In this document: positions 13,361-15,601 of the stretch, one piece after another | Numbering within the stretch: the first letter of the stretch is position 1 | Layout: each line of letters opens with the position of its first letter | Source: Streptomyces sp. CG4 | GTDB lineage: Bacteria; Actinomycetota; Actinomycetes; Streptomycetales; Streptomycetaceae | NCBI RefSeq assembly: GCF_041080655.1 | Contig: NZ_CP163525.1 | Span: forward strand, 6,820,001-6,884,000 | Length of the DNA stretch: 64,000 bases | Reading direction: 5' to 3' | Made by a program: the position numbers and the translations under genes | The notes under the pieces: generated by a model | What the model was told of the DNA's origin: nothing | The model's input: only the letters and a program-made list of their open reading frames with translations | Databases searched by the model: none

Positions 13361-13534
13361 GAGGTGTCCTTCTGGGGAAAGGGACGGCAACGGGAAGGGT
13401 GGAGCCCGCTGATCGTAGTAGGGGAGGGGACGGCTTCCGTAGGGAGGGCGGGGCAAAGGAACGGCCGAGGGATGCGCAAAGCGGATGAAGGCGGGCGACG
13501 GTGGATGAAGACAGGCGACGGTGGACGACGCCGG

Positions 13535-13561
13535 GATAATTTGAACCGCGGATGCGTATTA
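13535..13561 (+). promoter_or_regulatory. nsrR promoter with predicted NsrR autoregulatory operator
   Basis: A GATAAT -10-like hexamer (13535-13540) is followed by a site at 13541-13561 whose bases match the hmp operator (15337-15357) at 14 of 21 positions in the same register. The core (13541-13557) reads TTGAACCGCGGATGCGT. Placed around the likely transcription start, 15 bases before the nsrR ATG, it suits autorepression. Confidence 0.55.
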
Positions 13562-13575
13562 CCTACGCTCGCGGT

Positions 13576-14019
13576 ATGCGGCTCCTGCGCTCCACCGACC
13601 TGGCCCTGCGCGTCCTGATGCGACTGGCCGTGGCCGCCGACGCCACACCCACGACCCGCCAGGTCGCGGCGGACATGGACGTGCCCTACACGCACGCCGC
13701 GAAGGTCGTCGCCGAACTCCAGCACCTGGGCCTCGTCGACGCCCGCCGCGGCCGCGGCGGCGGCCTCGCGCTGACCGGGAGGGGCCGTACGGCGTCGGTC
13801 GGCGCGGTGGTGCGGATCTTCGAGGGCGACGGCGACGTGGTCGACTGCGAGGGCGCGACCCCCTGCCCCCTGAACTCCGGCTGCCGGCTGCGCGGCGCCC
13901 TGCGGCGGGCCCAGGAGGCGTTCTTCGTGGCCCTGGACCCGGTCACGGTCGCCGACATCGTCGCCGACCCCACCGGCCCGCTGCTGCTGGGCATCTCCCG
14001 CGGACCGCAGGCCGGTTGA
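13576..14019 (+). CDS. nsrR: Nitric-oxide-sensing Rrf2-family repressor NsrR
   Basis: A 147-residue Rrf2 regulator. The winged-helix part holds TRQVAADMDVPYTHAAKVVAEL (about residues 27-48). The iron-sulfur ligand loop shows three cysteines, Cys91, Cys97 and Cys103, spaced C-x5-C-x5-C, the NsrR arrangement that holds a [4Fe-4S] cluster destroyed by NO. Its partner is the convergent flavohaemoglobin gene hmp, and similar operators precede both genes. The ATG at 13576 has no obvious ribosome site and lies close to the -10, so the leader is very short. It likely represses hmp and itself until NO appears. Confidence 0.92.
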   Translation: MRLLRSTDLALRVLMRLAVAADATPTTRQVAADMDVPYTHAAKVVAELQHLGLVDARRGRGGGLALTGRGRTASVGAVVRIFEGDGDVVDCEGATPCPLNSGCRLRGALRRAQEAFFVALDPVTVADIVADPTGPLLLGISRGPQAG

Positions 14020-14058
14020 CGGGGGAGCGACCAGCCACGACGGCGCCGCAGGCGAACG

Positions 14059-14100
14059 ACGGACATCGCGGCAATTCCAACGGACATCGCGGCAATTCCA
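14059..14100. repeat. Perfect 21-bp tandem duplication between nsrR and hmp
   Basis: Two identical adjacent 21-base units (14059-14079 and 14080-14100), each beginning ACGGACATCGC, lie between the convergent stops of nsrR and hmp. It is probably a replication-slippage duplication of part of the shared 3' region. Confidence 0.85.
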
Positions 14101-14109
14101 GCGGAGCGC

Positions 14110-15294
14110 TCAGCCCTGGGCCGGCCACAGGTCCGGGCCGAAGACCTCGTAGTGGATGTCGGCCGGGGGCACGCCCTTCTCGATCAGCTGGGTGCGCAGC
14201 GCGCGCATGAAGGGCAGCGGTCCGCACAGGTACGCGTGCGTGCCGGGGTGTACCGGGATGCCGGCGAGGTCGACCAGGCCGGTGCGGGTGCCCGGCGCCG
14301 CGTCCCGCTCGTAGCAGAAGTGCACGGAGGCGGCCGCGAGCTTTCCGGCGTACGACTCGTGGTCGGTGCGCAGGGCGTGGTCGGCGGGGGAGCGGTCGCC
14401 GTGCAGGACGGTGACCGGGGCGCGGTGGCCGGTGGCCGCGAGGTCGGCCAGCATGGCGATCATCGGGGTCACGCCGATGCCCGCGGAGGCGAGCAGTAAG
14501 GGGGTGTCCGGGCCGGCGGCCAGGACCAGGTCGCCGTACGGCTCGGACAGTTCGAGGACGTCGCCGGGGCGCACGCGCGCGTGGAGGTGGTGGGAGACCT
14601 CGCCGTCCGGGGTCGTACCGCCGTGCACCCGCTTGACGCTGAACTGCCGTACCGTCCCGCCCGGCGCCCCGGACAGGCTGTACTGCCGTATCTGCCGGGC
14701 CCCGTCGGGCAGGGGCACGCGCACCGAGACGTACTGGCCGGCCCGGAAGTCCCGCACCGCGCCGCCGTCGGCCGGCCGCAGCCGGAAGGTGACGACGTCC
14801 GCGGTCTCCGCGACCCGCTCGACGACCTCCCACTCCCGCCATCCCCGGCCGCCGCTCTCCTCGTACAGCCGCTTCTCGACCGCGACGAGCGCGTTCGCCA
14901 TCAGCCAGTAGACCTCGTCCCAGGCGGCGGCGACCGCGGGCGTGACGGCGTCGCCGAGGACCTCGGCGATGGCGGCGAAGAGGTGCTCGTGGACGACCGC
15001 GTACTGCTCGGGCGCGACGCCGAGCGAGGCGTGCTTGTGGGCGATGCGGCCGAGCATCGCGTCGGGCCGGGTGTCCGGGTGCTCCAGCAGATGCGTGGCG
15101 AAGGCGGCGATGGCGCCGGCGAGGGCCTGCTTCTGGGCGCCGGAGGCCTGGTTGCCGCGGTTGAACAGGTCCCGCAGCAGTTCGGGGCGGGCGGCGAAGA
15201 GGCGGGCGTAGAAACGCTCGGTGATCTCGCCGATGGCCGCGCCGACTGCGGGAAGCGTGGCGCGGACGGTGGCTGCGGACGACTCGGACAGCAT
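14110..15294 (-). CDS. hmp: Flavohaemoprotein, nitric oxide dioxygenase
   Basis: A 394-residue flavohaemoglobin converting NO to nitrate with O2 and NAD(P)H. The N-terminal globin domain (about residues 1-140) carries the proximal haem His88 in IAHKHASLGV and TERFYARLFAARPELL. A ferredoxin-reductase domain follows with FAD-binding RQYSLSG and NAD-binding GIGVTPMIAML and YLCGPLPFM. GAGGAG precedes the ATG. A 17-bp perfect dyad upstream (15337-15353) is a predicted NsrR operator. Codon 266 is TTA (14497-14499), the only in-frame TTA I found in the window, implying dependence on the bldA tRNA for full expression. Confidence 0.95.
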   Translation of the reverse strand: MLSESSAATVRATLPAVGAAIGEITERFYARLFAARPELLRDLFNRGNQASGAQKQALAGAIAAFATHLLEHPDTRPDAMLGRIAHKHASLGVAPEQYAVVHEHLFAAIAEVLGDAVTPAVAAAWDEVYWLMANALVAVEKRLYEESGGRGWREWEVVERVAETADVVTFRLRPADGGAVRDFRAGQYVSVRVPLPDGARQIRQYSLSGAPGGTVRQFSVKRVHGGTTPDGEVSHHLHARVRPGDVLELSEPYGDLVLAAGPDTPLLLASAGIGVTPMIAMLADLAATGHRAPVTVLHGDRSPADHALRTDHESYAGKLAAASVHFCYERDAAPGTRTGLVDLAGIPVHPGTHAYLCGPLPFMRALRTQLIEKGVPPADIHYEVFGPDLWPAQG

Positions 15295-15336
15295 CGGGAC
15301 TCCTCACGACTCGGCTGAGCGGCACGCTATGAAAAC

Positions 15337-15353
15337 TTGCATCTGAGATGCAA
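15337..15353 (-). promoter_or_regulatory. Predicted NsrR operator upstream of hmp
   Basis: A perfect 17-bp dyad, TTGCATCT-G-AGATGCAA, 42 bases upstream of the hmp start in a locally AT-rich segment. NsrR sites in Streptomyces are AT-rich ~11-bp inverted repeats of this style, and a related site precedes nsrR in this window. Confidence 0.75.
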
Positions 15354-15601
15354 ATTAAACGGACATGGCTTCGCTCACTCGTCGCACGGGTTCGGCCATT
15401 ACGGATGTCGGTCCAAGCAGGCAAGATGGGCGACAGAGCAGTACACCTGCCGTACGAGAGGCGTTCAGACCGAGGACGCTCGGGCGATCAAGGTCGGCAA
15501 CGCGCACGAAACGGTGGTGTGGTGTGATGCTCAGGTGCCCGACCGCCTGCCGGTGGCACCCGGGAAAGGCGGCCTGACCAGCAAGGATGGGGAAGCGGAA
15601 G

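Follow-up and report, generated by a model that had tools for sequence, protein, structure and literature searches.

A convergent nsrR–hmp module beside glnA in Streptomyces, with probable NsrR operators in front of both genes

The window, by which we mean the whole stretch of 64,000 nucleotides that was analysed, is part of a Streptomyces chromosome (9.94-Mb contig), as judged for the genus by the nearest relatives. It carries a gene for a nitric oxide (NO) sensor, nsrR, and a gene for a flavohemoglobin, hmp, which are convergent and flanked by a DUF3105 gene and the gene of a type I glutamine synthetase (glnA):

13576..14019, plus strand: nsrR, Rrf2-family NO sensor of 147 amino acids with Cys91, Cys97, Cys103 and Asp8
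14110..15294, minus strand: hmp, flavohemoglobin (NO dioxygenase) of 394 amino acids, with its ATG at 15294

Tandem repeats with units of 20 bp (2.2 copies) and 21 bp (2.2 copies) lie on either side of nsrR, at 13483-13525 and 14059-14105.

The C-x5-C-x5-C motif that a preliminary description of this DNA had noticed in NsrR was correctly read and corresponds to Cys91, Cys97 and Cys103; with the Rrf2 fold and Asp8, the protein has the features expected of a cluster-binding NsrR of the S. coelicolor type (ScNsrR). Its best match in the PDB is ScNsrR itself (5n07, E 9e-54), in an alignment that spans residues 1-145 and in which Asp8 and the three cysteines are retained. The protein also belongs to the ScNsrR type by its DNA-contact residues, since nine of the ten positions compared (Thr29, Tyr40, Thr41, His42, Lys45, Thr48, His52, Arg60, Gly61, Arg62) are kept, the exception being Thr48, which is replaced by Ala. 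Its score against the model for the E. coli NsrR equivalog (NF008240) is 70.8 bits and thus below the curated cut-off of 182, which places it outside the proteobacterial subfamily. Hmp is a single chain with a globin, an FAD and an NAD domain and shows full-length homology to 1cqx and 1gvh. By sequence it is a member of the Hmp family, despite a score of 359.6 bits with the NCBIfam model for NO-inducible flavohemoproteins (NF009805, nearly whole model covered) that misses the cut-off of 432.

Upstream of each gene lies a candidate binding site for NsrR:

13538..13560, plus strand: predicted NsrR operator of nsrR, AATTTGAACCGCGGATGCGTATT, 23 bp, from -38 to -16 relative to the ATG
15334..15356, minus strand: predicted NsrR operator of hmp, AATTTGCATCTCAGATGCAAGTT on the hmp strand, containing a 17-bp dyad and the predicted -35 hexamer

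Both sites are 23 bp long with an 11-1-11 architecture, AA and TT ends and a common register, and they are identical at 16 of 23 positions when the hmp site is read on the hmp strand. In the shorter frame of the preliminary description (13539-13559) the agreement is 14 of 21, as it had stated, and the perfect 17-bp dyad that it had reported ahead of hmp, TTGCATCTGAGATGCAA, is present at 15337-15353. As stand-alone proof of an operator this dyad was rejected: the window holds six perfect dyads of that length where about 2.9 are expected, and such dyads arise by chance. The significance of the site thus depends on the motif that it shares with the nsrR site and on the conservation of that motif.

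A sceptical reading would be that the nsrR site resembles the hmp site by chance and that hmp alone is controlled, given that just 16 of 23 positions match and that AT-rich stretches are frequent at promoters. However, a match of at least 16/23 within 100 bp before nsrR was found in only 5 of 20,000 Markov sequences (33 of 20,000 for at least 14/21), and the operator-specific bases are conserved genus-wide, which makes this reading extremely improbable. When the 64-kb window is ranked by similarity to the hmp site, the nsrR site takes second place, and the next match reaches 14/23. Both sites are almost certainly operators to which NsrR binds to repress nsrR and hmp.

Conservation was assessed with 110 loci from related Streptomyces, many of them from draft genomes. 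In 101 distinct upstream sequences the best site begins at -37 to -39 from the nsrR start codon, and some 80-100 Streptomyces genomes keep both operators at nearly constant places. In the clade that shares the convergent gene order of the window, columns within the nsrR site carry 1.33 bits of information on average and those of its left flank 0.38, versus 1.60 and 0.66 bits for hmp. An alignment of 56 sites from both genes and from both this clade and the tandem clade discussed below, picked by similarity, gives eight invariant columns in a perfectly symmetric arrangement, AA-N3-G-N-A-N7-T-N-C-N3-TT. In a recount made without that selection all eight bases were kept in 77 of 101 nsrR sites and in 88 of 94 hmp sites, so that about a quarter of the nsrR sites of relatives deviate at one or more of these near-invariant bases. 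Both sites of the window retain all eight.

The eight columns agree with the contacts in the crystal structure of ScNsrR with hmpA1 DNA, in which Arg60 lies at position 10, Gly61 at +11, Lys45 near -6, His42 at +4 and Thr41 near +5/+6, while the central 7 bp are uncontacted and can be changed at unchanged affinity (PMC9338935). Removal of the AA/TT ends abolished ScNsrR binding (PMC4432287). Two loci depart from the general pattern at nsrR with the hmp operator retained: in L059 the recognisable operator upstream of nsrR is lost, and in L118 it is displaced to -52.

The position of the operators relative to the transcription signals follows from the predicted promoter elements:

13541..13546, plus strand: predicted -35 hexamer of nsrR, TTGAAC, within the operator, inferred from the sequence
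13564..13569, plus strand: predicted -10 hexamer of nsrR, TACGCT, 6 nt from the ATG, no Shine-Dalgarno sequence
15324..15329, minus strand: predicted -10 hexamer of hmp, TAGCGT, from a sequence pattern in relatives
15348..15353, minus strand: predicted -35 hexamer of hmp, TTGCAT, inside the hmp operator

The nsrR site had been described as straddling the -10 and start region, which is wrong: it spans the predicted -35 box and the spacer, and 15 nt separate its end from the ATG at 13576. In all 86 nsrR promoters from outside the tandem clade the operator is followed by a TANNNT sequence, and in 83 of them this sequence lies 17 bp after a TTGAAC-like (TTGAAN-type) hexamer; this -10-like hexamer is 6-7 nt from the ATG, and a Shine-Dalgarno-like sequence before nsrR occurs in none of the 86. 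The short distance from the predicted -10 to the ATG in the window (6 nt) and the missing Shine-Dalgarno sequence lead to the prediction that the nsrR mRNA is leaderless. Among 78 relatives, 66 have TANNNT in the hmp promoter 18 bp downstream of TTGCAT, and a Shine-Dalgarno-like sequence precedes hmp in all 78. Both operators thus probably cover the -35 box and the spacer. A strict scan for consensus sigma-70 promoters and terminators called neither the nsrR nor the hmp promoter and found nothing. Failure of such strict scans to flag promoters is common in high-GC actinobacteria.

The preliminary description regarded the nsrR site as a degenerate copy of the hmp site, with weaker NsrR binding and graded autorepression of nsrR next to tight repression of hmp. 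The numbers that could suggest such decay are the symmetric pairs (6/11 in the nsrR site, 10/11 in the hmp site), the lower profile score (15.5 versus 21 bits), and the behaviour of the S. coelicolor sites, where a full shift with ScNsrR takes a dimer:DNA ratio of 1 for hmpA1, 2.5 for nsrR and 4 for hmpA2, nsrR thus being bound somewhat less tightly than hmpA1 (PMC9338935). Nevertheless, the nsrR site keeps every one of the eight near-invariant positions, and its asymmetric form recurs throughout the convergent clade, which argues against decay. Moreover, dyad symmetry is no predictor of affinity in S. coelicolor, where hmpA1 is the tightest site of ScNsrR with the same 6/11 symmetric pairs, and the nsrR promoter of that organism needs most NO and is released last (PMC4861436). 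Decay with graded autorepression is therefore rather unlikely, and the earlier claim finds no support in these data; modestly weaker binding at nsrR in this species is possible, though symmetry gives no proof of it. We infer instead that the conserved asymmetry stems from the double role of the nsrR operator as a -35 box.

The genome-wide search proposed earlier was carried out with the two-site pattern, which had been built from the two sites and related ones; without mismatch it returned only the nsrR and hmp sites in 10.2 Mb. When two mismatches were allowed in this pattern, matches over the whole genome occurred at the control rate, and the dyad with three mismatches was found at two further places, which is about the control rate. 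The eight-base skeleton alone gave 33 matches in the genome versus 31 in the control, i.e. chance. A profile search of the genome also found only the two sites, but it did not pick up the sites established in S. coelicolor, so that a divergent third site is possible. Upstream of weaker Hmp-like matches (L120-L122) no good site was seen. Within this limited search sensitivity, the genome appears to hold just these two NsrR sites. It also encodes a single full-length close Hmp. The earlier proposal of NsrR operators before nsrR and hmp, of autoregulation and of a self-contained NO-detoxification module is supported.

The regulator acting at these sites might in principle be another one, as a second clear Rrf2 protein (at 6645212) is present in the genome and could bind instead of, or together with, NsrR. 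Its stretch as read for the tree is without the three-cysteine cluster motif, whereas the sites match the operator of ScNsrR and accompany this nsrR at a fixed distance genus-wide. A role of the second protein is thus very improbable, if slightly less so than chance resemblance of the nsrR site.

We have very little doubt that the module in the window is the Streptomyces NsrR-Hmp circuit for NO detoxification. In cells without NO, an NsrR dimer with [4Fe-4S] clusters would occupy one 23-bp operator per promoter and, since the operators cover the predicted -35 box and the spacer, would exclude RNA polymerase. Nitrosylation of the clusters by NO would release NsrR and allow expression of nsrR and hmp, after which Hmp would destroy the NO and newly made NsrR would reset the system (negative autoregulation). 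The present sequence analysis provides the sites with their register and conservation, the homology of NsrR together with its ligands, and the domain composition of Hmp. The cluster, DNA binding and release by NO were demonstrated in S. coelicolor (PMC4432287, PMC4861436), and by analogy the NsrR of the window probably behaves like ScNsrR in all three respects.

NsrR control of hmp in Streptomyces was already predicted in 2005 (PMC1274295), and six Streptomyces nsrR promoters have been shown to contain the site (PMC4432287). The present comparison extends the published six-species inference of general NsrR autoregulation in Streptomyces to roughly 100 genomes, with a recognition code, AA-N3-G-N-A-N7-T-N-C-N3-TT, that is simple and in agreement with the crystal contacts.

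The genus has two arrangements of these genes, the convergent order DUF3105-nsrR-hmp-glnA and a tandem nsrR-hmp. The tandem set comprises L023, L025-L038 and L136-L165, as opposed to the clade of the window, which is convergent beside glnA. In every bootstrap tree of the NsrR sequences one branch separates those from tandem loci from all others; in the tree as drawn the support for this branch is mixed (46/99), and the rooting is not reliable. Relative to the convergent clade, the symmetry of the operators is swapped in part of the tandem set: the hmp operator is the more symmetric one in 77 of 78 genomes of the convergent clade, versus the nsrR operator in 11 of 14 genomes of the first tandem set. 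No Streptomyces with convergent nsrR and hmp came up in a search of the literature. The new detail is a convergent nsrR-hmp pair beside glnA, distinct from the tandem type of S. coelicolor and with operator symmetry exchanged between the two genes.

Several loci show variations. L085, L087, L116 and L117 have no hmp between nsrR and glnA; each of these genomes carries an unlinked hmp with an NsrR-like operator (loci L175, L170, L174 and L173), about 60% identical. In L018 hmp lies beyond the end of the short stretch that was fetched, and L011, L043, L044, L048, L049, L093 and L118 have about 1 to 3 kb of extra DNA between nsrR and hmp. L039 and L112 have nsrR with an intact operator and no detectable full Hmp, and possibly represent an orphan autoregulated NsrR, or incomplete drafts.

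NsrR promoters differ in their sensitivity to NO, and the two clades offer a natural comparison for finding out why; structural data on this point were lacking according to PMC9338935. It is conceivable, although we consider it quite unlikely, that the convergent clade differs from the tandem clade in how strongly nsrR and hmp are repressed or in the NO threshold of the two genes, these having been retuned, or even reversed, because the symmetric operator is the one at hmp rather than at nsrR and because the nsrR operator is fused to the -35 box. If so, NO would release nsrR and hmp in a different order in the two naturally occurring versions of the circuit.

Among the known systems, RsrR of Streptomyces venezuelae also belongs to the Rrf2 superfamily, but it is a distant match to NsrR of the window (6hsd, E 4e-4, versus 9e-54 for ScNsrR), and its cluster, signal and operator all differ from those of NsrR (PMC9338935, PMC5015018). 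The NsrR proteins of Escherichia coli and Bacillus subtilis are likewise NO-sensing Rrf2 repressors acting on hmp, but they have larger regulons, use half-sites and recognise a different operator sequence; ScNsrR binds their sites weakly (PMC4432287). The closest system is that of S. coelicolor, with ScNsrR, nsrR, hmpA1 and hmpA2 (SCO7427, SCO7428, SCO7094), a circuit established by ChIP-seq, footprinting and crystallography (PMC4432287, PMC4861436, PMC9338935). ChIP-seq located NsrR only at nsrR, hmpA1 and hmpA2, and DNase I footprints cover all three sites (PMC4432287). Two of the sampled genomes encode an NsrR that is 98% identical to ScNsrR; in both, the exact crystallised operator, AACACGAATATCATCTACCAATT, is found at -34 relative to hmpA1, and nsrR has its site at -38. 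Both also carry another, unlinked hmp, whose site at -33 is AACAAGCATCTGAGATCCCAGTT. The module of the window shares with S. coelicolor an orthologous NsrR, the 23-bp 11-1-11 operator with AA/TT ends, the nsrR site at -38, predicted autoregulation and an apparently small regulon of nsrR and hmp (PMC4432287). It differs in that nsrR and hmp are convergent beside glnA instead of tandem, in having a single hmp where S. coelicolor has two, and in that the near-perfect dyad is found at hmp and not at nsrR. The module is best regarded as a further member of a known circuit.
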